Positions 20,681 through 61,869 of a DNA stretch of 64,000 nt are shown piece by piece; within the stretch, counting starts at the first letter, position 1, and each line of letters begins with the position of its first letter. Both the position numbers and the translations under genes were made by a program. The stretch comes from Acorus gramineus. Its lineage: Eukaryota; Streptophyta; Magnoliopsida; Acorales; Acoraceae. The notes below the pieces were generated by a model, which worked only from the letters and a program-made list of their open reading frames with translations, made no database searches and was not told the DNA's origin. The DNA is taken from positions 992,001-1,056,000 of the forward strand of contig JAUJYN010000016.1 in NCBI GenBank assembly GCA_030737835.1, written 5' to 3'.

Positions 20681-20685
20681 GAGTG

Positions 20686-25119: not shown

Positions 25120-25131
25120 TGGTATCAGAGC
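25120..25131 (+). other. Primer binding site, initiator-Met tRNA
   Basis: TGGTATCAGAGC, six bases after the LTR end at 25113. Confidence 0.92.
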
Positions 25132-25228
25132 CTGGTCCTGTCAGAGCCAAAGTCTAGTCGTATAGGTGATGAGTCGTAGGATTGTCATCCGAGTCCTCTT
25201 GTGTTAGAGGTTATCTTAGGTTGCTGAC

Positions 25229-25510
25229 ATGCCTCCTCACATCCGTTGACGTGGACGTTGTCGACTGGTTAGGGTCAGTTTTTAAATCTCTTGTGCGGGA
25301 TTAAGGTTTGGGTAGGAGATTTATGCCCAGTAGTGTGATAGTGATGAATTGGTTGCAATTTCTAAGGTATGGATTGTGTCTCGATAATGGAGCTCTTCTC
25401 CGTGTATCCGTATCGCTGGTAACCATTGAGTTCGCGTGTGGCGCCAGTGTAAAGTGTTGAGGATGTGGTATATTGCTCATTAAGGGATGATGTCTTCTTC
25501 TAGCCTTCCT
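25229..25510 (+). pseudogene. gag start remnant
   Basis: ATG CCT CCT at 25229 aligns with the MPPRRG start of the intact gag (3054-4430), and the following R-rich codons are still visible. The frame is lost within 20 codons and no gag domain or zinc knuckle follows, because the region jumps to the 118-bp module. Confidence 0.55.
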
Positions 25511-25518
25511 ACTCAGGA

Positions 25519-25637
25519 TTAAGGGGCCTTGCAGGGTCAGCGTTGAGACCCGGGCTAGGGTACTCCGTGTTCCTTGTTTGGTTGTCGGGATATCCTATAT
25601 CGGGACCTCATGGTGCCCTACCAAGGTTTCTTTTCCC
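25519..25637 (+). repeat. 118-bp module, copy 6 (internal)
   Basis: Sits between the gag remnant and RT-derived sequence, the same position as copies 1 and 8. Confidence 0.75.
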
Positions 25638-26339
25638 AGTCAAGGACTACCTTAGAAGCATCAAATTGATGGTGGATTTTTCCCTCTCACTTGGAAGGTG
25701 CTGTAGCGAGTGGTGATGCGTACGATCGGGATTGGGTGCGTCCTATTGCAGCTCAGTGGGCGATTGCTTGTGGACAGGGTTCCATAGTGGCATCTGGAGT
25801 CGCTTCGATATATCATTGTGCGTTGTAGCTGCCCGGTTGAGGCCAGAGCCCTGTGAGGTGCTCCCAGATGCTATGCTTGTTGGTGCGCCCATATGGCAGA
25901 GATAGTAGGCTTGGGAGGCTACCAGGTAGAGGCCACACCGGGAGAGTGCTGCTAAATGATGTCGAGAGCGTGGATTCCCGTGATGAATCCACCCATGGAG
26001 TGCAGGATGCTGGAGTTCCAATGGTTGTAGATGAGCGACCTATCTCTGGCGGCATGTGAAGCACAGTTGTGGATACTGTCGCGTTTTGCCCCACATTGGT
26101 CGCAAATAAGGAGACGCGATTTTAGCGTTCGTGATGGGATTCAACTGCCCTATCAGATAGATGACGTCGCATAGGCATTGTCGAGGTTCGACGACCCCTT
26201 ATTGCATGTCTTGTTGATTAAGTGCGGTTGAGCAGCTTACCAAGCGTGTAAGTGTTATCATGAGCGCCAGCCATGCTCGAGGAGCAGAATCTGGACTTAA
26301 TTGTTCGAGGTGTTGTTTTGATCTCCCTGTGGAGGTTGT

Positions 26340-26700
26340 AGATCAATTACCTTTGCTGTGAATCGATGATCTGTTTGACCAGCTCTGGGAGCGAGTGTCT
26401 GCTGTTAGATCGATCTTCGCACAAGGGTACCACAAGTTAAAGATCTGGGAGTTAGACATCCTGTAGATGGCCTTTCGTGACCGTTTCGAAGCACTACGAG
26501 TTTTAAGTGCTGCCGTCGGAGTTGACGAAGCGCTGGATGCCCTTGTGGATCTCAAAAGTTTTATTGGGTTCCCGAGGACTACTTTGGGGTAGTCTTCTTT
26601 GAGATTGCTGTGGTGTGATGAAAAGGTGATGTGGGTGACCTTGTTTCCCCAGGTTGGCATGCCCTCAGGCAAGTTTGAGAATCATCATTGAGTGAAAAGC
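26340..26700 (+). pseudogene. Ty3/gypsy reverse transcriptase remnant
   Basis: The plus strand reads LFDQLWE, then GYHKLKIWELDIL, then MAFRDRF, a degraded form of the RT block around the catalytic palm. A later piece reads VDLKSFIGFPRTT. Frameshifts and stops are frequent and the YxDD motif is not visible. Non-functional. Confidence 0.6.
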
Positions 26701-26769
26701 GTCAGTCCATCGAGATTTCCTCAGTGGACGTGGGAGTGGGTTATCAGGGATTGTTGCGGACTCGCTAAT

Positions 26770-27587
26770 GTCACGTTACCTTCGCGATTGTTCGTCTTCA
26801 TGGCACTCCAGTCGGCGCTATTTTCGGTTGAGACACGAGGGTTACTTTGAGGTTGTGGCGCAGCCTTTGGCGCGAGCCTCCATTTAAGTATAGCGTTTCA
26901 TCGCTGATGGACAGCCAGACAAAGAGGACGATTCAGACCTTGGAGGACATGCTAAGTGCCTGCGTGCTCGATGATGAGGGCAGTTGGGTGAGGCACCACC
27001 CATTTGTTGGGGTATGCCTGCAAGACGACTGCCATTCGAGCACCCAGATGGATCTGTGAAGGCACTCTACAGGCGCAGTTTTATACCTCCCTTGTGTTGG
27101 GACGGTTGAGGAGCGCCAGTTGGAGGGGCCATAAGTTAGTTGTTTGACCTTGCGGTGGCCAGGTTGGTTCGTGTGTACATCTGCACCTCCTAGAACCGAC
27201 AGAAGGGCTACCCAGGTCATTGTCGCCAGGGGCTTACCTTTGGGTTTGGCGACCATATTTTCAAGGTGTCCTGGTTAAAGGGCACCCTCTGTTTCGACGT
27301 TCAGGGCAAGCTGAGTTTGCTCTTTAATGGGACCATTTCTCGTCATTGAGTGGATTGGGGAGGTGGCTTATCATGTAGCCTTTCCTCCACGGCTGGCTCA
27401 TGCCCACGACGTCGTCCTTGTCCAATGGCCGAGGCGTTATGTCCACGATCCTGCTCATGTCATTCTATTCGACCGCCTCATCCTCGAGGTGGATTTGTCG
27501 TTCGTGGAGCAGTGGATCGAGGTCAAGGACAAGCATGAGAAGAGGCTCCACGCTAAGACCGTTCCTTTGATTATAGTGTGTTGGTAG
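26770..27587 (+). pseudogene. Ty3/gypsy integrase remnant with C-terminal tail
   Basis: Pieces in order are IVRLHGTPVG, KRTIQTLEDMLSACVLDDEG with GSWVRHH, then a frame (27327-27587) with VIEWIGEVAYHVAFPPRLAH, RRYVHDPAHVI and WIEVKDKHEKRLHAKTVPL. The C-terminal frame is open but starts in the middle of the domain. The HHCC finger and most of the DDE core are missing or broken. The distance to the polypurine tract is about 100 bp. Confidence 0.75.
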
Positions 27588-27686
27588 CGCCAGTCCGGTG
27601 CGAAGACCACTTGGGAGCAAAAGGTTTATGCATGATACTTCAGTCTTCCTTTTGGGTTTCCTTAAATTTCGAGGACTAAATTTTCT

Positions 27687-27699
27687 AAGGGGGGAAGGA
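27687..27699 (+). other. Polypurine tract
   Basis: AAGGGGGGAAGGA directly before the 3' LTR. Confidence 0.9.
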
Positions 27700-28327
27700 T
27701 GTTATGCTTGTGTCATTTGGAGCGCTCTGTTTGAAAATTTGGGTACATAATTTTTTCCTATAAGTTATGTATTTCCAATTTGGTATTTGGATTTGATTTT
27801 GTTAAAATCCAAGATGAAGAGGTTTAAATATGAGTTTACTATGAGATGTCCAGTTTTGAGTTAGCTTTCGTACAGAAGTGGAATTAGATCAACTGGATTC
27901 TTGTAGTAAAAGTTATGGGTATTTTTCCAAGTATACCCCGGGGAGGGAAATTCTGGCAGTAGCCCTTCTCTATGTTTATCTCTAATTTCGGAATAGCTAG
28001 AGGGATTATTTGATCTGGCATAATCATGAAATTTGTAGATAATCTTCTTGGCTTTCCAACGGACTTAGAATTGTGCAATTCGGAGCTGTATCGAGGAAGT
28101 TATGGCTGTTCTAGTGAAGCTTGTACAGAATTTCTAGTCGAAGGGCGACTAGGTCATTTCTCCTTAAGATATTTGTGATAAATATCTCTCTCTCTCTCTC
28201 TCTCCCCTCTCACTTCCACGAATACAACTCATTTGCTCTCCTTCTCTCTTTTCAAACCCCCCACCAAGTGTTTGTTGATATGCCTCAAAGAGAAGAAGAG
28301 AAGGAGATGGTGGAGAAGGAAGTGATG

Positions 28328-28407
28328 GTAGGTTTGGTTGTTGTTGTTTGTTCCCCTCTCTCTCAAGCTCCCTTTCTCATGATCTTCCCCCCCCCCACTG
28401 ATTGCAG
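28328..28407 (+). other. Putative LTR leader intron 1 (80 bp)
   Basis: Donor GTGATG/GTAGGT, T-rich then C-rich body, acceptor GATTGCAG/CCATAG. Confidence 0.6.
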
Positions 28408-28516
28408 CCATAGAGGGCTGAGGAGAGGCCGAGGTGGTGGTGGTGGTGGTGGCGGTTGAGGTGGTCACGGGTGCGTCGAGGGCCCCCGAACCTCCCCCTT
28501 TTGTTCCCCCTCCAAG

Positions 28517-29215
28517 GTGAGCTCCTCCCCTTCTTTTCTTGGTTTTTATGGCTTAAGGGATTGTGGGAAAGTCATGCATGCTAGGTAGATGGGTTAGGGT
28601 GTGTGTGAGGGGTTGGGAAGGGTTAAAATGAGGTTAGGACGGGCTGGGTGCGCGTTGGCAAGTGCAGTCGGGGGCGCAGACGCGCGCGGGTGAGCGGGTG
28701 CACGCGGGAGTGCGCGCGGGTGCTGCCGCGAGCGGGGGTGCGCACGAGGGTGCGCGCGGGCGCGCGCGGGCGTGTGCGCGAGCGTGCGCGCGCGCGGTAG
28801 TGCACCTGGGCATGTGCCTGGGCGCGGGGCAGGGGACCAGTGCGCGCGCGAGCGGGCGTGCGCGTGCTGGGGCGTGCGTGGGGTGTTGCGCGAGGAGGCG
28901 GGCTGGATGTGCAGTGCGCGCGGGCGCGCGCGAGCGTGCGGCAGCGCGTCTGGGCGCATGGGCAGGCGCGCGGCAGTGCGCCGAGGGTGCTGGGGTGTGT
29001 GCGTGCGTGCGCATTCGTGCGTGCGTGTGCGGGGGGCCATGCGTGTGGCTGCCCGAATGTTCGGGTAGGTGTCGGGCACTCGGACTCGCGTGCGTACGTG
29101 CGTGCTCGCATGCGTGCGAGCCCGTATGCATGCTTGTCCGAGTATTGGGTATTTCTAATGATTTCTTTGTGTAAATTGTGTTGTTTCTCACCAGTTGGAT
29201 GCCCCTACCTTGCAG
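28517..29215 (+). other. Putative LTR leader intron 2 (699 bp)
   Basis: Donor CTCCAAG/GTGAGC, acceptor CTACCTTGCAG/ATCTCG; encloses the GC tract (28645-29075) and the hairpin. The next exon is 39 bp. Confidence 0.6.
29079..29141 (+). repeat. Conserved hairpin, family D form
   Basis: Arms CTCGGAC and GTCCGAG with an inner CTCGCATGCGTGCGAG stem. Confidence 0.75.
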
Positions 29216-31779
29216 ATCTCGTCGGATGGGATGCTTGAGGTCCTGGGTTGTAAGGTGAGTTGTTTGATTCCAATCCCCCCCCCCTCTCTAGGGATGCGCT
29301 CGACCCGCGTAGACGCGCGTCACGCATCGATGGGCCCCCCTAACTAATATGTAGATATTTTGCATGCTAGGGATATACATCCATGTCTCGTGTATAGGGG
29401 CCCGTACATGCCTGGACACCATGTCATGTACTTAAAAGCCTTGATCTATGCATGATCAATATGATGTATCCATGCCACCTTAGACTTGTATGCTAGGGAT
29501 ATGCACCCTCATATTGATTAATATGATGTATCCATGCCACATTAGACATTGTATGCTAGGGAAATGCATCTTGACACCATGTTTCATGCTAGGAAAGCCT
29601 TGACCTATGCATGTTCCCATTTAGTTAATTTATTTAAATCAAGATGGGATTATGTGATTATACTGTTGTAAGCATGCCTTAGAGAATATTATAACCTTGT
29701 GGTTATAATATATGTCTCCCCGCTTCTTAGTTATGCGCCCTGGAGGAATTCTTGAGAATTCATGACATTAGAAATGTTAGGAAGCGTTGTCGACGGATCC
29801 AAGAGGATCGCATGCGTGTGGGTAGGCTGTTTCTCTTCCCTTCGTTGGATCCGTGTAGGGACTCCCCAGCGTTAGACAGGCTATCCTGACAGAGGGCTCC
29901 CATCTGTAGGTACCTCCGATGCGTCGAACTGTGCTGATCGTGGGAGTAGACCAGGCGAGCTACGGAGTGGAGGAGAGGCTATCGGTGGACCAAGGGTGAT
30001 TAACAGCCTAGTCAGTCCCAAGAGACCATGTCACCCCTTCGAGGGTGAGGGTGAGGGTGTGGTGGGTTGGCGATGTAACGACCCACTGGCTTGTGTAGTT
30101 ACTCCCGTATAGGGTCTATGTCTACTTTAAGGTTGATATGAGTGTGTTGCGTTGCATAGTTTGTGCCATTCACTGAGATTGTGGCACACCCCTCGCGTAT
30201 TCTTCTCCTCCAGAGTGGGAGTTGTTTCCATGGGGTTCGCTTTGCGAACATGGAATGTTCACTCCCAGGGTTGTTCGAGTTGAAGAGGCTGGGTTGTAGC
30301 TGTCCTGATAGAGGGCTCCCATCCGTAGGTACCACCGATGCAGTCAGAGGGGTACTGATCATGGGAGTATACCAGGTAGAGGCTACCCGGAAGAGGGCTA
30401 ACGAATGATATCGCGAGCGTGGAATCGTTCTTCCCTTCGTTGGATCCATGTAGTGACAGCCCCGGCGTTAGACAGGCTATCCTGACAGAGGGCTCCCATC
30501 TGTAGGTACCTCTGATGTGTTCGGACAGTGCTGATCGTGGGAGTATACCAGGTAAGCTACGGAGCGGGGAGAGGCTACCGGTGGACCAGGGGTGTAGAGC
30601 AGTCTAAGTCTCTCCCAAAGTCCCAAGATGTCTCCTTTCAGGAGTGAGGGTGTGGATGAGGCGAAGACGCGTCGCCTTGTGACCCATTCGTTGTTCGACC
30701 GTTCCCATAGATGTTGGGTCCGGTCTCGTGATCGATGTTGAAGGACATCGTTGGGCGATTATCTAGATGTAGATGATCCAGTAGTGTTGAGTAGACCAGT
30801 AAATCCGGGTCTCTTCGACCGACGGCATGGTCTCTAGACCAGTAAATCCGGGTCTCTTCGACCGATGGTATGGTCTCTCCCCATAAGTCCCAAAAGACTC
30901 CCTCCGGGAGTGAGGGTGGGGGTGAGGTTGGTCGCGCTACCGCGTGACCCTGTTATCCATTGGGTTTTTACCCATGTTCTCCTTGAAAAAGGAAATTGAT
31001 TATGTATTGAACTGTAGAATGGTGATTGGTTTCCAGCCACTCACTGAGCTTGTAGCTCACCCCTCGCATACTGTTTCTTTTCAGGGGCAGTGTTGGGCGT
31101 GGAGCTGGAGCTTTCCTATAGCGTGGTCTTATGGGCGTGGAGCGTTCTGCTGGTGGGTGGTGAGTGTGAGGCTGTCAGCATTCCTAGAGTCATTTTATGC
31201 TTTGTAAATCGTGCATGTGGCACAGGTTGTATTTTCTTTGGTCTAGACTTGGCTTTCACAGGACATTGATTGTGTATTCGGGTCTGTAATAATGTTTTGA
31301 TTTACAGACACTGTTATATATTATGCTTCCGCTTTTCAGTCAGTTATCATTATCTTGCTTTGCCGCCTTGTGTATTGTTGTTGGTGTCTTTATTGACCTC
31401 AGGTATTGATAGCTGATATTATATTTATTTTTCCACGTCTCGGGGACGCCTGGGGCGTGACAGTGATCGTGCATATGGTTCATGCACCCAACTAAGATTA
31501 AATTCTTCTATAAAATATATGCGCATGTTAAAAACTAAGATAGGTGTGGATATGACCCACTATCGGGTTGTACCTTAGTAATTAGAGCGCTAGCGATGTA
31601 ATCGCCCCGTGCATCCGAGCGATGCACTCGTTTGGAATTCAGGAGAATTCATTAGCTTATGGGTTTACTTCTACGTGAGAGCAGAGGTAACCCCCTTTGT
31701 GTCTGAGCGACGCAACGGTGTGGGAGTACAGTAGTATTCTGTATCTCAATAAGTGAGTATGGAGGGTAGTTGTTTTCCA

Positions 31780-34629: not shown

Positions 34630-37600
34630 ATGAAAGTGGATTCATGTGTGCCACCAGGCTTCAGATTCCATCCCACAGAGGAAGAGCTTGTGGGCTATTA
34701 CCTTGCAAGAAAAATAGCTTCACAGAAGTTTGATTTAGAGGTCATCGCAGACGTCGACCTCTACCGAATAGAACCATGGGATCTCCAAGGTTAAGACACA
34801 TTTCCTTTCAAAGATGATCAATCAGGTTTCTGTTTTAGTATTCCTTGTCATTAATACGTAATTCCTGTTGTAGATAGGTGCAAGTTTGGTTCTGAGGAGC
34901 AGAATGAGTATTACTTCTTCAGCCACAAAGATAAGAAGTATCCGACGGGAACTCGGACAAATAGGGCAACTGCGGCCGGGTTTTGGAAGGCAACAGGGAG
35001 AGATAAGGCTGTGCTTTCAAAGTTTAAGCTTATAGGGATGAGGAAGACCTTGGTGTTTTACCAAGGCCGAGCGCCCACTGGAAGGAAAACTGATTGGATC
35101 ATGCATGAGTATCGTCTTCAGACCAGTGAGCATGGACCTCCTCAGGCAAGTTCTTTTTGTCATAACAATTATAATTGATTTTTTTATTTTTTTTGGTGGG
35201 TAAAAGTAACTGAATGCATTATTAAGAAGAGAATGTACAAGAACTCAAGGAGGGCAAATGATTTCAAAGAGTGCAGACTTTATAAGACCTTATTGCATCA
35301 AACAAACTATTTATTAAAAAAGCAACCAATTAACAGCAATGATCTTTAGATTCTTAGATTCTTGTAGCTACGAGATAATAAATTTTGAGTTTTCTTTGAT
35401 AATTAGTCAACTGGCTATTTGGCAATCAACTTTGGGTGAAATTCTACGAGCACCAATGTATCAGATCTCATCCCAATGGACATCCTTTTACCAAGCAAAA
35501 ATATAAATATAAATAAAATAAAATAAAATCCAGTGGCATTGTGTCTCTGTTGATGTATATGGTCATTGGCTCCTTTTCATTATTATTATTCTTTTTTTAT
35601 TAATTTAAAAATGTTTATCAGCTTGATACAATAAAATTTTGTTCCAATATATTTTATTTTTTCTTGTTTTCTGCTTGGCCGATGGTCTTACATGTGCCAT
35701 TTCAGCTCACAGGTAATGTAAATTCAGGTCTTTCTAAAAATAATAATATTTAGTTTCATATAGCATGACCTTCCTAAAATAACTTTCACACCATAGAATA
35801 GCACGAAGGATTACAATTTAATTTTACTACCCCATAGAAAAGCCTAGAGGATAACAGAGGCCGGATCCAGTCAGAACTCTATTCAGTCAGTTCAGTCAGT
35901 CCCAAACTGGATATCCCTTTAATCGAACTGCATAATGTATATATCAAATTGCACATTCAATTGTTGAGTATATATTTCACTCTTCTATTGGATAGTGATG
36001 ATACTTAGAAATTCATATTTTCTCTAATAGCTGATTGGATCCAATAAGAGAGTGAAATATATACCCAACAATTAGTTGTGTAATTCGATTTATACATTGT
36101 GCAGTTCGATTAAAGGGGTGTTCAGTTCGGTATTGACCGAACTGACTGGATCCAAGTCCTGACTTGATCCGATCTCAAGATAACAATCATAAATTACATC
36201 GAATAAGGGCTTTCCCAAATTAGGTTTCCCAGTAATAGGAGAATTGTAGGAATAAACTCCACCGTTTATATGATTAATTTCGTTGAGAGCATCAAAAATT
36301 AAATTCAAACAGGTCATGCTAGTCTTTTCCCACGCACAATGTGCGTGTAAAAAAATATTTTAGAAAAAAATTTCAATCCATTTATATGTGATTTAATATA
36401 TCATGTTTATATATAAATAAATGAAATAATGAAAATTCTAATAATGATAAAATAAATCATCTGTAAATTTTAAAATGAAACATAAAAGAGATATGTTACA
36501 ACTAAAATGAGTGTTTTTACATATATACCCCTCCACTAACCCTATATTGTAATCATTTGAAACTCTAAAACCAACAATATTGTTCGAATGGATAAAAAAT
36601 AAATTTTATGTACAATTTAAATCTTTTAGAATTACAAGTGTAACTTGGACGAGTTGAACCCAACCTAAAATTTTAGCAAGTTTGGGGTGTGATTTTAGCG
36701 TTCGGGTTCAACCTGAACCTAATTTGGTTTGGGTGTGGATTTAGGTTCAGGGTTTGGGTAACCCAAACCAACCCAAATCCGAAGTTTTTATATCTAAGTA
36801 AAATGTTCTAAGTGAAATTATCATTTTTTAATGTGTATGATAAATTTTGAATTATACAATTTATTTTTATGTAGAACTTTCACTTCTATAATTTTTATAT
36901 ATTTATTCTCTAAAAAGAGATATTCCATATTTTCATCTTTTTTATTTTTTTTATGCATATAATTGACTTTTGCAAAGTTTTAATTGCTTAAAATAATACA
37001 TTTTAAAAATCAAATCATAATTCAACCCAAGCTCAACCCGAACCCAGCTCAACTCTAATTAATCAAACCCGAACCCAACCTGAACCCAACCTTATCAAAC
37101 CTGAACCGAAACCCAAACAAAACCCAACAGGTTGGGTTCAGGTTAAATTTCTCAAACCATATGATCAGGGTGGGTTCAAGTTAAGTTTTTCAAACCCAAG
37201 AATCGGGTTGGATTTGGGTTAGGTTTCTTCAACGTCAGGTTGGGTTGGGGTTGTGTCACATCTTCTAAACATTCATTTAATATATAGATAGGTAATCAAT
37301 TACCATATATAAAATCAGGGATTACATTATATTAATTTTGTGCTTTAAAAAAAATGATATATCACATATTCTTAATATTTTGAGTACCCTAAAATTAATT
37401 ATAAATAGTAATAAATTTTAAGATGTAATATAAAATCATTAAAAAAATATTCCAAAAATATACTACAAATATATTATAAAATGATTATGAATAAATTACA
37501 ATTAAAAAATAATCCATTATATTTTCAGAATTGAATGAGATTTGGTGGATTTGGATATGTTGTTATGGTATTTAAAATCTATCTATTATCCATGATTTTC

Positions 37601-39207
37601 TTAACATAAATCTAATAAAAAATAATACCAAATAAAAATACGGTGATGTGGCATGATCACCACCATTCTTTCAATATATTTTTAAAAAATTATTAGTGTG
37701 ACACAGTTGAAAATACTTTTGGTTAGTAATATAGATAGATGTTATATTTAAATAAAACACATGTGCGTATCACATGTCAGGATTATTTATGTTTTCATTA
37801 AAACAGCGGGAATCCAAATACATACAATGATTTAAAAAGTTATTCTTATGTAAATCAAATTTTTAATTGTTTTTTATAGTAAAAAAAACCAAAATCTTAC
37901 AGGGTCACCACATTTTTCAAAATTCTGTACTGCGTAAGTTTCAAAGATTTCTAGTTCTGCGGGAATCCAAATACATACAATGATTTAAAAAGTTATTCTT
38001 ATGTAAATCAAATTTTTAATTGTTTTTTATAGTAAAAAAAACCAAAATCTTACAGGGTCACCACATTTTTCAAAATTCTGTACTGCGTAAGTTATTTTGG
38101 TGTCTAACTTGGCTTACATTTTACAAACTTTTCTTTACATCAAGTGTTCTGATTTGTTAATTTAGCAGGTTTGGTGTTTTTGTTTAGTGAAAAGATTCTG
38201 ATTCATAAAATCCTTCTAAAGAAGAAAAAAATATTTACTGAATCAAGTTAACCATGAAATTTAACCGACATAAAGTGAGGCTTTTAGATGAATAGGAGTT
38301 CTCATTTGCTAGACAAATGCTTTCTTCAGTGAATATTCCCATCACATACTAGAACAAAAAGGGCGTTGCGGTACTGTCAAGTGCAAAACACTATTTATTA
38401 GAATGCTGCATGCATGTCCTAATTTTAGTACATCTAACTATGGATGTAGATTATTGAAAAGCACTATTTGTACGTTTTCCATTATTTTTTTCTCATATAT
38501 GATAATGAAGCAATGTTATGCAGTAGTATTTATAATATAAATATATGGTGCAAGTTACCAGCTCTTAATTTAGTTGGCGGCCGGGAACTCTATTGATGAT
38601 AATTGCTTGAGATTTGTTTTGATTAGGATATTCCATTGGGGGGTTAGAGAATTTTTTCTCTCTAAGCTTTTCATATTTTTTTTTTCGCGGCTTGCATCAT
38701 CTATTGAATTTACCAAATTTTAATGAATTGCAGGAAGAAGGATGGGTTGTATGTCGCGTATTCAGGAAGCCAAGTCCAAACCAAAGGCAAAGGTTAAACA
38801 CGTGGAACCCTCACAACTACATCAGAGAAGCCGACTTCAGAGAATCAGATGGTATAAATCACCCTGCACACATCATTGACTACATTTTTCAAGGAAACAA
38901 CGTCGGCGAGGCCTCGTTCGCCCCCAATCTAGACCTTCAATCCGAGCGCGCTTGCATCAACCAAGTTGTTGAACTTCCAAAGCTGGACAGCCCAAGTGTT
39001 GAGACAAGTTTCAATACTACTGGGAGTTCTGATCATCAGCATCAAAGGAATGACAATTGTGGAGGGCAATTTGTTGATTGGAACGTTTTGGACAAGCTAT
39101 TGGCAACACAATCAAGGGAGGCTGCGTCGTATTCAACATCGAGTTTGTATGAAGCAGATGCTCAAGATCATGATAATCAGTTCCCTTTGCCTTTTCCAAA
39201 CCTGTGA
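34630..39207 (+). CDS. VND7: VND7-like NAC transcription factor (3 exons, 301 aa)
   Basis: Exons 34630-34789, 34874-35145 and 38734-39207 join in frame to 301 codons plus TGA. Exon 1 carries NAC subdomain A ([18 protein letters not shown]) and B (EPWDLQ). Exon 2 carries C ([20 protein letters not shown], then [17 protein letters not shown]) and D ([24 protein letters not shown]). Exon 3 starts with E ([13 protein letters not shown]) and PNQR. The C-terminal ELPKLDSPS and [14 protein letters not shown] match the LP and WQ motifs of VND proteins. AVLSK, PNQR and LDSPS point to VND7 (Arabidopsis 324 aa) over other VND or SMB members. VND7 is a nuclear activator that switches on secondary wall and cell-death genes in xylem vessels. 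Oddities: intron 2 is 3.6 kb with a GC donor; EQNEYYFF replaces the usual EQNEWYFF. Confidence 0.92.
34790..34873 (+). other. Intron 1 of the VND7-like gene (84 bp)
   Basis: Donor CTCCAAG/GTTAAG, acceptor GTTGTAG/ATAGG; phase 1, restoring an Asp codon. Position after subdomain B is the usual one in NAC genes. Confidence 0.92.
35857..36177. mobile_element. Foldback MITE, hAT-like duplication
   Basis: Two arms of about 140 bp pair with each other: left GGATCCAGTCAG, CCCTTTAATCGAACTGCA, TATATTTCACTC; right the reverse complements in order. The outermost bases are GAGGCCGGATC and the complement of TGAGATCGGATC. Flanks are GATAACA on both sides (35850-35856, 36179-36185), or 8 bp with one mismatch, which fits hAT. 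There is no coding capacity. Confidence 0.75.
36650..37260. repeat. AACCC / GGGTT-rich inverted repeat block
   Basis: Dozens of AACCCAACC, AACCCGAACC, GGGTTGGG and GGGTTCAGG words at both ends of an AT-rich core, with a small palindrome TTTGGGTAACCCAAA in the left part. The left end reads GAACCCAACC and the right end GGTTGGGTTGGGG, so the outer parts are roughly inverted. Such blocks are common in plant introns and are usually unclassified DNA transposons. Confidence 0.6.
37806..38093 (+). repeat. Perfect 135-bp direct duplication
   Basis: Copies 37806-37940 and 37959-38093, which appear identical, separated by 18 bp (TCAAAGATTTCTAGTTCT). Both begin GCGGGAATCCAAATAC and end CTGCGTAAGTT. Confidence 0.9.
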
Positions 39208-40319: not shown

Positions 40320-42754
40320 CACTAATAAAATACATCACGAGGACAAACCACACCCATATGAGCAACATGCTCCTTGAAAACTTTAGGACAAACCACACCC
40401 TTAGCAAGCGGGCCCGCAATCATAAGATTTGTAATAATGTATTTGATTGACATATGATAATTTCAAAATCTTTATTTAGCGAACAAAATCTGAATATGAA
40501 TATCTAACCAATTCCAATTGATCGGATTATCGAGTGTGAGCATTAAATTTTTGTTGTTTGCTAGAACTGTATAATGCTTTTAATCATTTTCCAGCAATTC
40601 ATTCATGATTGCTTAATTATTTGCCAAACATCCTAACAACATACGCAATATCTGGATGTGTACAAACTTGAGCATGCATGAGACTCCCTACTGTTGCTGA
40701 GTAAGGGATATTCTCCATTTATTTTTCTTTAAATTATTCTTTGGGCAATTGAGTAATCTTAATTTATTCCCCTTAGCAATGGGTGCATCACGTGGTACAC
40801 AATTTTGTATAACAAATCTAGTAAGCACTTTATTGACATAAACCTTTTGTGACAAATCAATAATATCGCGTGATCTATCATGTTGGATCTGTATGCCTAT
40901 CACAAAAGATGCTTCACCAAGATCTTTCATTTAAAATTTCTTCGAAAGAAATCTCTTAGTCTCATGCAATAAACCTATGTCACTGATTGCTAGTAAAATG
41001 TCATCAACGTATAGCACCAGAAAAATAAATTTATTCCCACTAGTCTTATGATAAATGCATTGATCTATGGTGTTTTCTTTAAACCTGAAAGAAGAAATCA
41101 CTTGATCAAACTTTAGGTACCATTGATGGGATGCTTGCTTTAAGTCTAGATGGATTTCTTTAATTGGCGTACCAGATAATCTGATCCTTTAGCCTAAAAA
41201 TCTTTTGGTTGCACCATATATATCAACATCAACATTAAGAAACATAGTCTTGACATCCATCTGAAGTAGCTCTAGGTCATAATGAGCTACAAGTGCAATA
41301 TTAAGCCTGAATGAGTCTTTCATTGATACCGAAGATAAAGTCTCTTTATAATCAATGCATTCCTTTTTAGTAAAGCTCTTAGCGACAAGTTGTGCCTTAT
41401 ATCTTTCGATACTACCATTAGAATCTCGTTTGGTTTTAAATACCCATTTACAACTAGTTGTCTTTATATCCTTAGGCAGTTCGACAAGATCCCAAATGTC
41501 ATTGTCACTCATGAACTTCATCTCATCTAACATGGCATTGGTCCACTGTAGGGAATGAGCGCTTTGTTTGGCTTGACTGAAAGACTGAGGATCATCTTCC
41601 ATTCCTACATCAAACTCATGCTCTTGGAGATAAACAATATAATCACTTGGAATTGCTGGTCTCCTCTTCCTCTGTGATCTTCTCAATGGCACTTCCAATT
41701 GAGGTAGTTCGGGTTCTCCCATATTAGCAAGAGGCAACTCAGGAATATCTTGGTGATCTGTATTCACATCTTGCACAATGACAGGTGCGATCACCTCATC
41801 ACTTTCAACAATTGTCATGGGAATGACAATTTGTTCTTCTTCAAGAATGATATTCATATGTTGTAAGCTCCCACTACTTTAAATATCCCAAATAAATTTG
41901 GCATTATCGATCTCAATCAAACTATTGTAGAAGGGCAATAAAACTTAAAACCTCTTGACTTTTTGGAGTATCTGACAAAATGGTAACTAATTGTCCTTGA
42001 ATCTAACTTTCTTTCATAAGGCTTGTAAGGCCTAGCTTCAGCAGGACAACCCCAGACATGAAGATGCCTAATACTAGAAAATTTTCTAGTCCATAACTCA
42101 TACGGTTTTAGCTACCAATTTATTGGCCCATTAAGAATGTAAATTGCAGTCTTTTAGGTTTCTTCCCACAATAACTCTGGTTGTGAAGATTGACATATAT
42201 ACTCCTAACCATATCGTTTAGGGTTCAATTTCATCTCTCCGACACACCATTTTGACATGGTGTCTCTGGCATGATGTATTGGGGAACAATGCCACATTTT
42301 TTTAAGTATCTCGCAAATGGTCGTGGACATTGACCTGATATGTCATATCTACCATAGTATTCACCACCATGGATAGACCTAATTGCTTTAATATTCTTAT
42401 TGTGTAGATTTTCAACTACAGCTTTATAGGCCTTAAAAACGTCAAAAGACTGTGACTTTTAATGAATTAAGTGTAACGCGAATAGTTGTCTGTAAAAGTA
42501 ATAAAATGCATTTGACCATTCCAAGCAACCATAGGGAATGGATCACAAATATCTATATGTATTACTTCTAAGAAATCTAGACTCCTTGATGCACCATGCT
42601 TCTTTATGTTTGTTTGTTTTCCCTTGATGCAATCAATGCACATCTTAAAATCATAAAAATCAAGGGGACCAAGAACTCCATTTGATACAAGCCTTCCAAT
42701 TCTCTCTTTCAAGATATGTCCTAGACGCTTATGCCATAACGTAGAGGAGCTCTC
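40320..42754 (-). pseudogene. Ty1/copia pol remnant (pre-integrase, integrase, RT, RNase H)
   Basis: On the minus strand, in order: GAG pre-integrase zinc region (SSTLWHKRLGHI, MCIDCIKGKQ) and the start of the integrase core (IHIDICDPFP, FITFTDNYSRYT) at 42467-42740; a linker; RT start at 41189-41857 (SCKWVFKTKRDSNGS, ERYKAQLVAKSF, LELLQMDVKTMFLN); RT YVDD intact at 41000-41011; RT end at 40688-40930 (MKDLGEASFVIGIQIQHDRS); RNase H scraps and the terminal ADPLTKG-like tail near 40330-40420. Stops and frameshifts divide all parts. The reading continues across the solo LTR into 45848-45877. Inactive. Confidence 0.85.
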
Positions 42755-45700
42755 TGTCACGCCCCAGGGCGGCCGTCCCCGAGACGTGGCAATATATAAA
42801 GTATCAGCTACCAATTACAAGAGGTCAACAATGACTCCAATAAATAACACACAAAGCTGGCAAACAATGATAACTGATAGTTCAACTAAAATACGGAAGC
42901 ATAAAAATATCAATAAGTCTGTAAACCAAAAATATTATTCCAGACTCGAATACATAATCATTGTCCAATGAGAGCCAAATCTAGTCCAAATAAAGTACAA
43001 CCAATGCAACACGCATGATTTCAAATACATAAATGACACTAGAACTGTTGACATTCTCGCACTCGCCAACCGCCAGACGGGACACTCCACACACTCAAAC
43101 CCCGCCAAAGAGAAGCTCTAGCTCCACGCCCAACACTGCTCATGAAAAAGAAACAGTATGCGAGGGGTGAGCTACAAGCTCAGTCAGTGGTTGGAAACCA
43201 AACACCATTACAATAATTCAATACTAAGGCAATTTTCTTTCAAGGAAAAACATGGGTAGAAACCCAATGGATAACAAGGTCACGCGGCGGCGCGACCAAC
43301 CTCACTCTCACCCTTACTCCTAGAGAGAGACTCTTGGGACTCTTAGGGAGAGACCATACCATTTGTCGAAGAGACGCGGAATTACTTGTCCACATAACAC
43401 TACTATATTATCTACATCGAGATAACTGACAAACGATGTCTTTGAACATCGACACATAACTGGACCAAACAACTATGGGAACGGACGAACAACGAATGGG
43501 TCACGCGGTGACGTGACTTCACTTCATCCCCGCCCCTGCCCGAAGGGAAACTTTTGGGACACCGGGGAGAAACAAAGGGTCAACCATAACACCTACTGCT
43601 ACTTGATAACCTAAACAACCAGTCCCTCCGCTATGAGGTAGAGATGTCGCTACGATACCTCGAGGCATTAGGAAAAACTTGCCTGAAGTACGCTCAACAG
43701 GTAAAAGGGTCACGTGACCACGTGACTTCAGCTCACCCTCACCCTCACCCCTAAGGGTAACACAGGACTATTGGGGGAAAATCCAATGGCTCTACACCCT
43801 TCGTCATCCGGTAGCCCTCTCCCGAGTAGCCTCTACCTGGTATACTCCCATGATCAGTACATCTGCCGAACACATCAGTAGTACCTACGGGTGGGAGCCC
43901 TCCGTCAGGACAGCTTCAACACCGGGCAACTTCAACGCAGATCCGATGAAGGGGAGAACGATTTCATGCACACAATGTGAATCACGTAGGTTGACTACTC
44001 TCGATAGTCATATACCGATGATATCGAATACCCTTGAACTCCCATGCAGATGCGTCGATCAGACGCAAGGAGTTAACTATACACTCGTGTAGAAATAAGC
44101 CAAGGGCATAACCCAACAGGCGGTTCATACACACGCCTAGCACAGGTAGGCCTTGCTTAATGCCATAAAGACCGGCTTAACAAAACCGATATGACAATGA
44201 ATTCTCCTGAATTCCAATCAAATGCATCACTTGGATGCAAGGGGGCAATTACATTGCTAGTGTCAAACTAATAGGGTACAACCTGATAGCGGGTCATACC
44301 CATGCTTATTTCAGATAGGTCTAATCAGTTTTAACTTACGTTTATATATTTTAGGAGAATTATATCACCGAAGGAACTTGATCCACATGCACAATAACAT
44401 ATGATTAACTATAGGGGGTTCTCTCTAACATGAGTATATGGCATAAACAACACATTATGCAACTTACATACAAGGCAAGGCCTAACTACACATGCATATG
44501 AGGGCACTATTCATATAAAAATACAAAATATACTCTAGCATGCGTTGAATATTACCAACTAAGAAAATGAAGGGTCAAGCGCGATCTCGCGCACTAACAA
44601 GTGCATGCCAATATTCCCAAACGAACCTGAGTCAAGTAGGAACCGCATCTACTTACTCAGTTCGTACAAAGAGAGAGGGCGAGAGAGAGCTCATCATCTC
44701 ATTAAGTTGGTCATAGCTTTGCCCCATTAGCATGGGCGCAACAACTACACCACGCCCTCGAGTCTTATGACTAGGGAATATTAAATGTGAACCTAGTTAT
44801 TAACCCAGGCTTAAACATGATGGATATTACAATTAATATGGTAGTATTACTCATAGGGACTACCTAAGGCATGCCATATTCTATACATTCATAAGACTCA
44901 TACGAAAAAACATGCCCAACAAGAAGGGCGCATGAAAACACAATTATTCATACATGAATACAATACATAGGCTAGTATATGGTAGAATAGGGGTTCTACG
45001 CAATATACGAGCTATACAAACCTAGCATGCAAATATCTAGCATATTTTGGATTATACATGACCATACTACTTATCTAAATAGGTAGTATAATCAGGGTGC
45101 CCAACGGATGCGCGACGCACGATTACGTGCATCCAACGCTTCTCGAAGGGTTGGATCGAACCACTCACCTAACGACCCATTCATCGCGAGTTCCGCCAAC
45201 GAAAGCATAAGAGGGGGAGGGAAATGGGGAGATGCAAGGTTCTCGACACACCCACGACCACCTCAACCACCACCACTACTACCACCACCTCACCAACATC
45301 TCCTCAAGCCCTTCTTGGCCTCTTGCACTCTCTCTTGTGCTTCTTCTTCTTCTTTTCCTTCTTTAACACACACACAAAAAAAAATAGAGAGGGAGAGAGA
45401 GAGATGAGAGTGAGAGAGTGAGGGATTTTCTCACTTGGGGGGGGGGGGTGGTTGATGAGAAGGAAAGAAAAGGGGGTGAACTTAAGCCTATTCTCACCCT
45501 CTATTCTCACCCTAACACAAAAAAATAACCAAATGTTGCTTAACCTTAAGAAAGGGGGGGTGAGGTTACCAAAGGCCACCATATTCACCAAAATATCTAA
45601 CACGATTAGACCAACCAAACCAGGAACTCTCAAAACCCGGATACGGTTCAGAACTGCATATTTTTCAAAACGTTACCGGAATTCAATGAAATTTTTATGG

Positions 45701-45842
45701 GTAGTACAAAACGATACCAGGACCCATAATATGCAGTTAGATTTTCAATCAGAGTACTCCAACTCCCGCAGGTAGCTAAAAGCCAAAATTTTAGCGACTC
45801 CGATCGAAAAAAAATAAGGGTCCAAATGACACGGGCATACTA
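42755..45842 (-). mobile_element. Solo LTR, family C, apparently intron-less
   Basis: Minus strand from TAGTATGCCCGTGTC (mutated TGTTATGCC start, at 45842) to GGGGCGTGACA (42755), 3088 bp; target duplication CTCTC at 42750-42754 and 45843-45847. It lies inside the copia pol. Leader exons 1, 2 (45206-45318, 113 bp) and 3 (45169-45205, 37 bp) are fused with no introns between them, unlike the sister copy ending at 61869. The third donor TTAG/GTGAGTGG is intact at 45168. Confidence 0.88.
45169..45345 (-). other. Fused leader exons 1-2-3 in the family C solo LTR
   Basis: Exon 1/2 junction at 45319/45318 (GCAAGAGG/CCAAGAAGG) and exon 2/3 junction at 45206/45205 (CTCTTATG/CTTTCGTTGG). In the copy at 61086-61279 the same positions carry an 82-bp and a 181-bp intron with GT and AG ends. 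Confidence 0.65.
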
Positions 45843-46810
45843 CTCTCATTTATTAATCTTCGCTTTATACCACCACCTGTCACACCCCAGGGCGGCCGTC
45901 CCCGGGACGCGGCAAGTGTATATATGATATCAGCAGTCTAAACAGGAGTTCAATAATATACCCTAAACAACATCCACAATGACAACACAGACAACAATGA
46001 GGCTGACATGATATATACACAAATAGCGGAAGCTAAAAGACTGAATCTGTAATTCAAAGACATATTACAGACTCGATACATAATCAACTGTCCTGTGAGA
46101 GCCAATATATACAACGACATCCAAATATAATACAAACGTGTGCCCAAGCATGGAATACAATACATACAATCAAGAAGGGATGCTGATAGCCTCTAACACT
46201 CGCGGAATGTGGCGCTGCTCTGCTACTGCTGAAGTCCCTCGGGGAGCTCCTCCGGCTAATCCGACTCAGATAACACTGGAGAAAAATATTATGCGAGGGG
46301 TGAGCCACACGCTCAGTGAATAGCACAACCCATGCATCACAATTCATATTAACCACAATTAATTTATTGAAAGCCTCAAAGTGGCAGGAACTACAACAAT
46401 TTAGTGGGTCGCTACATTGCCCACCCACCACACCCTCACCCTCACCCTCCAATAGGTGACCCAGGATATTGGGACTAACTAGGCTGTTAATCACCCTTGG
46501 TCCACTGATAGTCTCTCCTCCACTCCGTAGACCGCTTGGTCTACTCCCACATTCAGCACAGTCCGTCACCAAATCAGGAGGTGCCTACTGATGGGAGCCC
46601 TCTGTCAGGAAGGCCTGTCTAATGCTGGGGCAGTCTCTATACGGATCCAACAAAGGGAACAGAAACAACCTATCCACACGTATACGATCCACTTGGATCC
46701 GCTGACACCGATCTCAACTTATAAATGTCATGAATTCTTCAGAATTCCTCCAGGGCGCATAACTAAGATGCGGGGAGACACATATTATAATAACGAGGTT
46801 ATAATATTAT

Positions 46811-46931: not shown

Positions 46932-47357
46932 TATAATATTTTCTAAGGCATGCTAATAATCATATGCTCGCATTTGATTTAAAGAAATTAAACTAATAGG
47001 ACGCATGCATAGGTCAAGGCTTTCCTAGCATGAAAAACATGGTGTCAGGATGCACGACTCTTACAGATATCCTAGGGGTGCAAGTCCCTAACATACAAGG
47101 TCTAGGGTGGTATGCATACTACATATTAATCATGCTACATAGATTACATATTATACAAGTTAATATTAAACTATGGTGCCCCAGGGGAGGACGGTGTACG
47201 CCCAAGTGCATATAGCGCCTCCCTACTGGATTGGATTGTCCCACTCACCATAACCCGGGTCGTCGCGTGACCGTCGTCAAGATCTGCAAGACAGGGCATT
47301 CAACATGGTGAGTAAAATACACAAATACACACAAAAATACACTAAAAATACCCAACA

Positions 47358-47400
47358 CTCGGGCAAACGTACATACGGCCCATACGCACGCTAGCCCGAG
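47358..47400 (-). repeat. Conserved hairpin, family A form
   Basis: Arms CTCGGGC and GCCCGAG. Confidence 0.75.
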
Positions 47401-47970
47401 CACCCCGACTCACTCCCGCACCCCCGGGCAGCCATACGCACGGCCACCCGCCCCGGGCGCACAGTCGCGCCCCGGCCCGCGCGCCCAGACGCACTGCCGA
47501 GCCCCCTACCTGCACGCCCAGACACGCTGCCGAGCCCCTGCCCGCACGCCCAGACCCGCCGCACGTTGCGCGCACGCTCGAGCGTGCTCACACGCACCAC
47601 GCGTCCAGCTCCGGATGCACCCCCGCGCACTGCGCCCCAGCGCAGCACCTCGCGCGCACACCCGCACGCACTGCGCCCCAGCGCAGCACCCCACGCGCAC
47701 CCCGCGCACACTCCCGCTCGCCTCCCCCGCGCACACTGCACGCAACGCGCCCCTGCGCAGCGCTTCGCACGCACGCCCCCGCACGGCGCCCAGCGCGCAG
47801 CACCCGCACGTGTGCCCGCACGCACGCCCGTCACTGCGCCCAATGCGCAGCACCCGCGTGCACGCGCGCGTCCCCTGCCAGCTCACCCGACAGCGCGCTT
47901 GCCCTGCGCCTGCCAGCCTGCCCTACCTGCCTGCCTGCCGCCTGCGCCTGCTTGCCTGTGCACGCCGCTG
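47401..47970 (-). repeat. GC-rich tract of the A2 LTR
   Basis: CACGCGCACCCCGCGCAC-type repeats; low-complexity frames only. Confidence 0.8.
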
Positions 47971-48232
47971 AGCCCGCATGCACCTAGGCCAACCCTAACA
48001 CCTCCAACCGCCACCAACAGCCCCCCAAACAACCCCCAAACCACCAAGCTCCCCTAGCACACCCATAAACACCTCCTATACATTCATCTAAACAAGAAAG
48101 GAAGGAAAGAAAACTCACCCAAGGAGAGGAAAGGAATGGAGGGAACTTCGGGTGCACTTCGCGCACCGAAACACCACCTCCAAGACCACCACCACCAAGG
48201 TCTCCACTCAGCCAAAGAGGGGCTGAAAACAG

Positions 48233-48313
48233 AGGAGAAGAGGGTCCATTAGAGGAGGAAAAACAAAGGGAAATGAAGATCCAAGACCATGGATGGATAA
48301 ATCGGGACAATAC
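48233..48313 (-). other. Putative LTR leader intron 1 (81 bp)
   Basis: Donor GGCAAG/GTATTG, acceptor CTGTTTTCAG/CCCC. Confidence 0.55.
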
Positions 48314-58500: not shown

Positions 58501-58917
58501 CCACAAGGTTATAATATTATCTAAGGCATGCTTATCTCAATATGCTCACATTTGAGTTAAATAAATTAAACTAAATGGGAAACATGCATAGGTCGGGGCC
58601 TTCCAATAAAAAGGACATGGTGACTAAACATGCATAGGCCGCTATGCATGATATAAGGGTACATATCCCTAGCATACAAAGTCTAAGGTGGCATGCATAT
58701 TATTTACATATTATAGCTAGGGGGCCCCATCGATGCGTGACGCGCGTCTATGCGGGTCGAGCGCATCCCTAGAGAGGGGGGGGGGATTGGAATCAAACCA
58801 CTCACCTTACGACCCGGGACCTCGCGCATCCCATCCGACGAGATCTGCAAGGTAGGGGCATCCAACAGGTGAGAAACAACACAATTTACACATAGACAAC
58901 ATTAGAAATACCCCATA

Positions 58918-58980
58918 CTCAGCCAAGCATGCATACGGCTCGCACGCATGCGAGCACGCACGTATGCACGCGAGTCCGAG
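58918..58980 (-). repeat. Conserved hairpin, family D form, decayed
   Basis: On the minus strand the left arm is CTCGGAC; the right arm is decayed (GGCTGAG instead of GTCCGAG). Confidence 0.55.
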
Positions 58981-58984
58981 TGCC

Positions 58985-59480
58985 CCGACACCTACCCGAA
59001 CACTTGGGCAGCCACACGCATGGCCCCCCCGCACGCGCAAGCACGAATGCGCACGCACGCACGCACCACAGCACCCTCAGCGCACTGCCGCGCGCCTGCC
59101 CGCACTCCCAGACGCGCTGTCGCGCGTGCGAGCACGCTCACGTGCGCCCGCGCGTCCAGCCCAGCGCTTACCCGCGCGCACCCCCCCCCCCCCCCCCCCC
59201 CGCGCAGCACCCCGCGCACACCCCAGCATGCGCACGCACACGCACGCACTCACGCGCGCGCACTGGTCCCCAGCCCCGCGCCCAGGCACATGCCCAGGAG
59301 CACTGCCGCGCGTGCGCACGCTCGCGCGCACACCTGCGCGTGTCCCCGCGCACTCCCGTGCGCACCCCAGCTCGCACCAGAGCCTGCGCGCACCAGCGCA
59401 CTCGCGCGCACGCGCCCGTGCCTGCCAGCGCCCGCCTGCGCGCGCACGCGCGCAGACTGCGCCCAGCGCGCGCCCAGCCC
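58985..59480 (-). repeat. GC-rich tract, family D
   Basis: CACGCACGCACG-type sequence with a 21-base C run near 59180-59200. Low-complexity frames on both strands. Confidence 0.8.
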
Positions 59481-59702
59481 CTCCTAACCCCATTTTAACC
59501 CTTCCCAACCCCTCACACACACCCTACCCCTATGCATAGCATGCAAGACTTCCCCAACATCCCCTTAAGCCATGAAAACCAAGAAAAGAAGGGGAGGAGC
59601 TCACCTTGGAGGGGGAAGGAAAGGGGGAGGTTCAGGGGCCCTCGACGCACCCGCGACCACAACCACCACCTCCACCTCAGCCCTCCTCAGCCTCCTCCTT
59701 GG

Positions 59703-59790
59703 CTGCGAAAAACAGTTGGGGGGGGGGGGAACAAGATATGAGAGCTTGAGAGGGGAGAAGACAAGCAACAACAATAACACAAAGACTCAC
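59703..59790 (-). other. Putative LTR leader intron 1 (88 bp)
   Basis: Donor GTGAAG/GTGAGTC, acceptor TTTTTCGCAG/CCAAGG. Confidence 0.6.
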
Positions 59791-60904
59791 CTTCACTTCC
59801 TCCTCCACCTTCTCTTTGAGGACATTAAACAAACACTTGGTGGGGGCTTGAATGAGAGAAAGAGAGACAAGAAAAATGGCGTGGAAGTGAGAAGGGAAGA
59901 GAGAGAGAGAAGATATTTATCACAAATATCTAAGGAGGGAATGACTAAGTCGTCCTTTGACTAGAAATTCTGCGCATGCTTCACTGGAACAGCTATAACT
60001 TCCTCAATATAGCTCCGAATTGTACAATTCCAAGTCCGTTGGAAAGCCAAGAAGATTATCTACAACTTTCATGTTTATGCCAAGATCAAATAAGCTCTCC
60101 AGCTATTCCGAAATTAGAGCTAAACATAGAACAGGGCTGCTGCCAGAATTTCCCTCCCCGGGGTATACTTGGAAAAATACCCATAACTTTTACTACAAGA
60201 ATCCAGTTGATCTAATTCCACTTCTGTACGAAAGCTAACTCAAATCTGGACATCTCATATTAAACTCATATTTAAACCTCTTCATCTTGGATTTTAACAA
60301 AATCAAATCCAAATACCAAATCAGGAATACATAGCTTCGAGGAAAAAAAATTATGTAGCCCAAATTTTCAAACAGAGTGCTCTAAATGACACAGGCACAA
60401 CAAAGGGAGAGGGCGAGAGAGAGCTCATCATCTCTTGAAGTTGGTCATAGCTTTGTCCCACTAACATAGGCGCAAAACTACACCGCGCCCTCGAGTCTTA
60501 TCGCAAGGGAATAATAGGCAGGTGCCCGTTATTAACCCAGACTTAATCATGCTGGATATTCAATTAATATGGTGGGAGTAGTACTACAAAACTACCTAAG
60601 GCATGCCATATTCTGTACATCCATACACACTACAGAAATACATGCCCATACTAGAGGGGCGCATGCAACACAATCATTCATACATGGATACAATACATGC
60701 AATATAAGCCTAGCATGCAAGATATCTAGCATATTTAGTTTAAGCATGGCCATACTACTTATCTACACAAGTAGTATAGCTAGGATGCCCCATCGATGCG
60801 TGACGCGCGACTACGCGCGCCGAGCGCATCCCGAGGGGGGGGGGGAGAGATTGGATCAAACCACTCACAGATACCCGAATCGTCGCTCGTCCGGTCTACG
60901 AGAT

Positions 60905-61085
60905 CTGCAAAATACAACCAATGATCCACTATTAAAATATGGAACCTCCTATCACACAAATAATCCTACTTCATGAAGACACTAACCCTTGATACTTCCA
61001 TATTATCACACAAGACATAATCATAGGATTGTGCCTCTAAATACTAGATTCACTGAGCTCTTTAAAATACAGAGTGCTGCCTTAC
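60905..61085 (-). other. Putative LTR leader intron 2, family C (181 bp, no GC tract)
   Basis: Donor CTGTTTTG/GTAAGG, acceptor TATTTTGCAG/ATCTCG. Lacks the GC tract and hairpin seen in families A and D. Confidence 0.6.
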
Positions 61086-61197
61086 CAAAACAGGGGGAGG
61101 GAAATGGGGAGATGCGGGGTTCTCGACACACCCACGACCACCTCAACCACCACCACCACTACCACCACCTCATCAGCATATCCTCAGCCATCTTTGG

Positions 61198-61279
61198 CTG
61201 AAAAACAGGGGGGGGGGGAGACATGAGAGGGAGCTTGAGAGAGGAGAAACCACAACAACAACACATACACAAAACTCAC
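61198..61279 (-). other. Putative LTR leader intron 1, family C (82 bp)
   Basis: Donor AAAGAAG/GTGAGT, acceptor GTTTTTCAG/CCAAAG. Confidence 0.65.
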
Positions 61280-61869
61280 CTTCTTTGTGCTTCCTTCTTC
61301 ACCTTCTCCTTCATTTGCTTCTTCCTCCTCCTTCTCCACACACAAAGAGGGGAAAAAAGACCAAGAGAGGGAGCTTGAGAGAGTTCCACGAAATGGGAGA
61401 GAGGGGGAGAGAGAGAGAGGGCAAAAATGTCTTTTTCAAGCCCAAATAGTGTTTAGGGGTGACCATAAGGGGGGGGTGAAGTTAGGGTTAGGCTCACCCA
61501 CTCACAAATCAAATAACCAATGGTTTCTTCATCCCCAAGCAAGGTGGGGGTAAGGTTACCAAGGGTCACCACATCCCCAAAATATCTCACACTATTCGAC
61601 CAACCAGGAACTCTCAAAACCCGGATACGGTTCGGAACTGCATATTTTTTCAAAATGTTACCGGAATTCGATGAAATTTTTATGGGTAGTACGAAACAGA
61701 ACCAGGACCCATAATATGCAGTTAGATTTTCAATCAGAGTACTCCAACTCCCGCAGGTAGCTAAAAGCCAAAAATTTTAGCGACTCCGATCGAAAAAGAA
61801 AAAGGCCCTGAATGACCCATATGTGACCAAGGCTTAACCGAAATGGCTCCGAATGACACAGGCATAACA

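Follow-up and report, generated by a model that had tools for sequence, protein, structure and literature searches.

Background

A leader intron in a position comparable to the one described here is known from SIV and HIV-2, which carry a functional intron in the R-U5 leader (accessible text of PMC1766366, citing Viglianti 1992). The likeness lies in an intron inside the R-U5 leader and the difference in the host, SIV and HIV-2 being animal lentiviruses; a limited search of the literature at title level recovered no report of integrated SIV/HIV-2 copies without the leader intron. For HIV-1 and RSV, spliced RNA makes up to 10% of the packaged RNA, according to the accessible part of PMC5086612. 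Plant LTR elements are generally intron-free, with Ogre and EVADE (EVD) given as exceptions in the consulted part of a 2025 review (PMC12786077); Bagy2, Ogre and CRR are named as spliced in an excerpt of PMC3735527, and spliced isoforms are recorded for sunflower elements in an excerpt of PMC7730604. The elements Ogre, EVADE, CRR and Bagy2 thus also have spliced transcripts, but their splicing, as described in these excerpts, concerns the coding part. The barley Copia element BARE1 uses a spliced RNA for Gag and a separate RNA for copying (same excerpt of PMC3735527): it shares with the present case the separate RNA pools for translation and replication and differs in that its 104-nt intron is at the gag end, outside the LTR. 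In the intron-marked Ty assay of 1985, performed with a TyH3 element carrying an inserted intron (same part of PMC12786077), intron loss likewise marks passage through spliced RNA; there, however, the intron was engineered and lay within the element, whereas the case below is natural and located in the LTR, so that an intron would vanish from both LTRs at once.

Retroelements must exclude the spliced messenger from the copying pathway, and with introns inside the LTR each failure would leave a permanent scar in both LTRs. A genome rich in such copies would record the frequency of spliced-RNA reverse transcription without any experiment. We analyzed a window of 64,000 nucleotides of Acorus gramineus DNA (contig JAUJYN010000016.1, positions 992,001 to 1,056,000), which suggests that some plant LTR elements carry leader introns inside the LTR, an arrangement not found described in our open-access literature search. 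That search, by title, for introns in LTRs returned matches only on conjugative or retrotransposable elements and on lentiviral vectors; excerpts from a paper on maize CRM1 (PMC7010299) and from a review of retroviruses (PMC12789967) contain nothing on LTR introns, and the words intron, spliced, splicing and leader have 0 occurrences in an overview of centromeric retrotransposons (PMC3059260).

An LTR without leader introns

LTR B (Table 1) is a solo LTR with well supported ends, as both a 5-bp duplication and the LTR ends of the family are present: it ends in TGACA like the other copies and starts with TAGTATGCC, where LTR A has TGTTATGCC. It sits inside a Copia ORF, and when the flanks are joined an uninterrupted Copia frame (GGIKRRLINESSSTLWHKRLGHI...) results; the part of this ORF that enters the 3' flank has a gag_pre-integrs match (Pfam). 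LTR B is continuous at the two places where LTR A, its nearest relative, carries an 82-bp and a 181-bp intron with GT..AG ends. A sequence-only reading of the window had placed these two introns in the leader of LTR A and had described the adjoining exons as whole in LTR B; the coordinates and ends of both introns were re-read and stand, as does the integrity of exon 2 (113 bp in LTR B, 112 bp in LTR A) and exon 3 (37 bp), which abut. The stretch 45169-45345 of LTR B spans exons 3 and 2 and the last part of exon 1, and its exon 2 is 89.5% identical to that of LTR A over 114 columns. The third donor is retained in LTR B, together with 2414 nt of LTR past exon 3. LTR B is a single copy (n = 1).

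The alignment of LTR A and LTR B contains four gaps of at least 30 bp: stretches of 41, 92 and 181 bp are absent from LTR B and 42 bp are extra in it. The 41 bp near the LTR start (61828-61868 in LTR A, absent from LTR B near 45842) are flanked by GTCATT repeats in LTR A, as read by eye, and resemble an ordinary deletion.

A leader composed of exon 1, intron, exon 2, intron and exon 3 is common to three LTR families in the window: A/A2, N and D. The N LTRs start at 60402 (N60), 27700 (N27) and 17889 (N17), and the D LTRs at 48860 (D48) and 63077 (D63). LTR A2 (13777-15323) has an A-like first part and a D-like 3' end and is probably a recombinant LTR.

Table 1. Positions of the LTRs, leader exons, putative introns and associated signals in the window
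Feature	Positions	Strand	Remarks
LTR B	42755-45842	minus	solo LTR of 3088 bp; leader introns 1 and 2 absent
Target-site duplication, 5' side of LTR B	45843-45847		GAGAG
Target-site duplication, 3' side of LTR B	42750-42754		GAGAG
Exon 2 of LTR B	45206-45318	minus	113 bp; joined to exon 1 upstream and to exon 3 downstream (45205/45206)
Exon 3 of LTR B	45169-45205	minus	37 nt; nhmmer match begins past the acceptor columns
Third donor in LTR B	45163-45168	minus	GTGAGT; top donor-like of 40 GTs scored in the leader stretch of LTR B
LTR A	61869 to 60403	minus	intron-bearing relative of LTR B
Intron 1 of LTR A	61198-61279	minus	82 bp, GTGAGT...TTTTTCAG
Exon 2 of LTR A	61086-61197	minus	112 bp
Intron 2 of LTR A	60905-61085	minus	181 bp, 35% GC, GTAAGG...TTTTGCAG
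Exon 3 of LTR A	60869-60904	minus	36 bp, then GTGAGT
Intron 1, LTR A2	14370-14451	plus	
Element N	17889-31462	plus	target duplication GTGAT; introns in both LTRs
Intron 1, 5' LTR of element N	18521-18598	plus	
Intron 1, 3' LTR of element N	28328-28407	plus	
Intron 2, 3' LTR of element N	28517-29215	plus	699 bp, 67% GC
Intron 1, N-type LTR 60402-56769	59703-59790	minus	
Intron 2, N-type LTR 60402-56769	58845-59604	minus	760 bp
Intron 1, outgroup LTR D48	48223-48313	minus	
Intron 2, outgroup LTR D48	47284-48118	minus	835 bp
PBS of a D-type element	4533-4544	minus	TGGTATCAGAGC; within proposed intron 3
Proposed intron 3 acceptor and gag ATG	4428-4449	minus	TTAG (G at 4440), ATG at 4430-4428; putative

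Exactness of the junctions

The junctions in LTR B are sharp at three of the four intron edges, namely at both edges of intron 2 and at the acceptor of intron 1. When a fixed length was excised from LTR A, the five best of 441 placements for 181 bp were tied at offsets -1 to +3, with 0 included, and the three best of 441 for 82 bp were tied at offsets -2 to 0. With both ends free (6561 pairs per intron), exact excision of intron 2 was unbeaten, six co-optimal solutions shifting in step with it (one being shorter by 1 nt), and the five best pairs for intron 1 had their acceptor edge at 0 to -2. The intron 1 donor edge behaved differently: its free-end position was 13-16 nt upstream of the GT against LTR A and 15 nt upstream against LTR A2, with score gains of +9 and +31 units, respectively.

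A pair-HMM that has no knowledge of splice signals assigned 81% and 76% of its probability to positions no more than 3 nt from the two intron 2 ends of LTR A. For the intron 1 acceptor the share within 3 nt was 97% (A2), 65% (N60) and 53-59% (A), and the intron 1 donor edge against N60 was at +3. The version with costlier skips covered A, A2 and N60; the figures for N27 and D48 come from a first version, in which additional skips were permitted (3.0 to 4.7 for A, N60 and N27; 2.2 for D48). Against these two copies its boundaries were blurred, and just 13% (N27) and 2% (D48) of the probability fell within 3 nt of the intron 2 acceptor.

The end of exon 1 is made of purine-rich repeats, which read GTGCAAGAGG before exon 2 in LTR B and GTGAAGAAGGAAGCACAAAGAAG in LTR A. 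The offset at the intron 1 donor could reflect a separate exon deletion of 12-13 nt next to an exact junction, or one merged deletion; the scoring prefers the latter, partly because one gap fewer is opened, and the data therefore make no safe choice between the two. Use of an alternative upstream donor was considered and rejected: there are GTs in LTR A (GTGAAG) and LTR A2 about 8-10 nt before the best-fit junction, but they leave the offset unexplained, since LTR B retains bases past them (read by eye). The exact loss of both introns that the sequence-only reading had put forward is thus borne out for intron 2 and for the acceptor of intron 1 and not for the donor of intron 1, and the ragged junctions that it had named as contrary evidence are seen at that one edge of four only.

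Two independent DNA deletions, by slippage or microhomology repair, that happened to remove both introns are an unlikely explanation. The blurred donor edge of intron 1 and the further, ordinary-looking 41-bp gap relative to LTR A would agree with it, but intron 2 is missing to the base and the intron 1 acceptor to about one base, and the flanks of the lost introns share just 2 nt and 1 nt (read by eye). In a control of 21 pairs formed by seven other leader copies, moreover, none of the 9 internal gaps of at least 30 bp coincided with an intron to within 5 nt on either side jointly, although the control is weak in that several pairs are only 46-54% identical. By the same 5-nt rule, the 181-bp gap between LTR A and LTR B (intron 2) passes and the 92-bp gap (intron 1) fails, with offsets of 2 and 8. 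The earlier judgement that random deletion is hard to credit accordingly applies to the three sharp edges, while slippage may have acted at the intron 1 donor edge.

Loss of the introns after integration, through gene conversion with a spliced cDNA, would yield identical junctions, and one copy cannot tell the two routes apart; it is nevertheless very unlikely, as it requires an extra step for which LTR B gives no call.

Leader introns in the related LTRs

Complete copies of intron 1, with GT..AG ends, occur in A, A2, N60, N27, N17, D48 and D63; complete copies of intron 2 occur in A, N60, N27 and D48, and its donor side is visible in A2, N17 and D63. In the latter three, intron 2 is incomplete: the first part is followed by an internal deletion in A2, a nested insert splits it in N17 (the 5' LTR of element N, where the acceptor (22849) and exon 3 are found within 22849-22915), and in D63 it leaves the window. 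Together these amount to 11 introns covered end to end (seven times intron 1 and four times intron 2) with GT..AG ends conserved between relatives.

Profiles of exon 2 and exon 3, built from 5 and 4 copies, respectively, taken from A, A2, N and D (LTR B excluded), were used to search the window. The exon 2 profile gave 12 matches, of which those at 18483 and 28290 (in exon 1 of N copies) were dropped. Intron 1 DNA is kept between exons 1 and 2 in nine of the ten remaining copies (seven with GT..AG), LTR B being the sole exception. The two weak matches, at 7579 on the minus strand (D7) and at 19630 on the plus strand (D19), keep the intron 1 DNA without an AG acceptor. Splice-site decay in these two D-type copies has left the DNA in place, whereas in LTR B the DNA is gone. 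For exon 3, TTGCAG or TTACAG followed by ATC precedes the exon in 10 of 11 copies and is absent only from LTR B. The D-type leaders to which the two weak matches belong, at 7490-7780 (minus) and 19420-19710 (plus), lack the AG acceptor where D48 and D63 have one. The stretch 16642-17777 joins an N-type U3 to the 3' half of intron 2 and then to exon 3, resembling an internal leader deletion.

Donors, acceptors and pyrimidine tracts are conserved across the families, and the intron bodies vary in length and sequence. The body of intron 2 in LTR A has no match elsewhere in the window, and N and D carry a CG-rich intron of 699-835 bp at that junction; judging by this comparison, the intron 2 body at this exon junction seems to have been swapped. 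On a lenient score against the U1 consensus, 9/9 is reached by the first donor in A and N60 and by the third in N60 and N27; donors 2 and 3 of A, donor 2 of A2 and donor 1 of D48 are mediocre at 6/9.

It is highly improbable that the missing segments are insertions or deletable blocks whose GT..AG ends arose by chance, rather than spliceosomal introns. Such blocks would fit the four donors at 6/9, the intron 1 DNA without AG acceptor in D7 and D19, the CG-rich intron 2 of N27, N60 and D48 (67-69% GC and 90-95 CpG, which is odd for a plant intron) and a splicing pattern that is read from DNA, but they would leave the 9/9 donors, and splice sites and pyrimidine tracts that are conserved in spite of differing bodies, to coincidence.

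Age of the two leader states

In the U3 tree (8 rows; the N rows were left out as their U3 did not align), LTR B, LTR A and the fragment X9462 are apart from A2 and D (98 with IQ-TREE and 0.965 with FastTree). Two other trees, one built on the sequence past exon 3 (11 rows) and one on the LTR end (12 rows, without LTR A, whose end falls outside the window), place LTR B with low support (52 and 61), on the same side of D as A and N. Family D is about 50-74% identical to A and B, depending on the part. The long CG-rich intron 2 is shared by D and N, including its 3' end, and the introns would therefore be older than LTR B. From these relationships the intron-bearing leader is taken as the older state. 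An intron-less ancestral leader, listed by the sequence-only reading as a possible objection, is not what the window shows, as A, A2, N and the outgroup D all have introns at matching positions. The corresponding alternative, an ancestral intron-less leader into which introns were inserted in the other families, hardly deserves credence: the content at the intron 2 position has changed at least once (the body in A is unmatched, and N and D have another), but the same-place introns of A2 and the distant D, together with the closeness of B to A in U3, lead us to reject it.

Proposed origin from partly spliced RNA

LTR B was probably copied from an incompletely spliced RNA that had lost introns 1 and 2 and still contained intron 3, as read from the arrangement of exons and signals. 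During reverse transcription, the 5' end of the RNA is the template for R-U5 in both new LTRs. The leader transcript of these Ty3/Gypsy elements would start within the 5' LTR and contain three introns, the first two in the transcribed R-U5 part. By homology, introns 1 and 2 would lie within R-U5; TATA-like motifs are found ahead of exon 1, 407 bp from the LTR start in D48 and 477-481 bp from it in N27 and N60, and none was found with the patterns used in A, B, A2 and D63.

The third intron would run from the GTGAGT after exon 3, which is present in 11 of 11 copies (LTR B included) and among the best conserved columns of the stretch, probably to just before gag, and would contain the remaining U5 and the PBS. 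With at most two mismatches, the PBS pattern occurs at five places, of which the three that follow an LTR end were examined (4544 minus, 51671 minus and 25120 plus). In all three, the stretch from PBS to gag contains TTAG, nine bases (GGTGCTGAT, GTTGCTGAT and GTTGCTGAC) and ATG; the TTAG 9 nt before gag and past the PBS is the likely intron 3 acceptor. Many ATGs lie in the stretch from donor 3 to the LTR end (62 in N27 and 30 in D48), which would be a reason for gag to need a splice. Depletion of upstream ATGs in exons 1-3 is not a general rule (5 ATG in N27 and 1 in D48, with exon 1 assumed to start 32 nt past the start of the TATA-like motif). Exact-pattern scans with the LTR end (viral contigs) and the PBS flank (viral and prokaryotic contigs) gave 0 matches, in collections that say little for a plant element.

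The fully spliced RNA would serve as gag mRNA and would not be primable, and an RNA that keeps intron 3 would be primable. As the PBS would lie in intron 3 and an RNA without PBS is not tRNA-primed, introns 1 and 2 could be lost through reverse transcription, but intron 3 could not. In the template of LTR B, introns 1 and 2 would have been removed and intron 3 kept, the order of splicing being part of the proposal; minus-strand strong-stop DNA would then have copied the joined exons, both new LTRs would have been intron-less from birth, and a later LTR-LTR recombination would have produced the solo LTR. The pattern of LTR B, with introns 1 and 2 missing and donor 3 present, is the one proposed for a template that retains intron 3. 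The origin by reverse transcription of spliced RNA that had first been proposed for LTR B thus gains support from the intron-bearing relatives, the exact loss of intron 2 and the retained donor 3. The normal separation of messenger RNA from copying RNA appears to have leaked once, and LTR B would be a natural counterpart of the intron-marked Ty experiment.

Element N has introns in both of its LTRs, so unspliced leaders also serve as templates. That introns 1 and 2 have persisted in three families would need either unspliced RNA as the usual template or selection that keeps them. We tentatively consider, as a possibility that we would not call probable, that the arrangement acts as a lock: with the PBS in intron 3, splicing would set whether an RNA is messenger or genome, half-spliced templates would permanently erase introns 1 and 2 from both LTRs, and LTRs like B would be the escapees. 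If so, the survival of the leader introns in three families would point to selection for them (e.g. intron-mediated enhancement), and the frequency of B-like LTRs would measure the failure rate of the lock.

Element class and surroundings

The D-type gag (3054-4439) matches Retrotrans_gag (6.6e-16) and Ty3_capsid (6.2e-08), and by this gag, which is not that of the A/B family, the elements are classified as Ty3/Gypsy. SH3_Tf2-1 is just below the cut-off at 27315-27584 and 8767-8955, with no Chromo match at either place; the only Chromo match, also below the cut-off, is in another element at 1973-2437. Going by the long LTRs and the PPT, the elements may be chromoviruses of the Tekay/Del clade.

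Comparison of the window with itself shows many nested plant LTR elements. Two further features were seen: 310 bp at 35862-36171 match their own reverse complement (78%), and an ORF at 38623-39207, without Pfam match, contains WVVCRVFRK, which we take to be reminiscent of plant NAC proteins.
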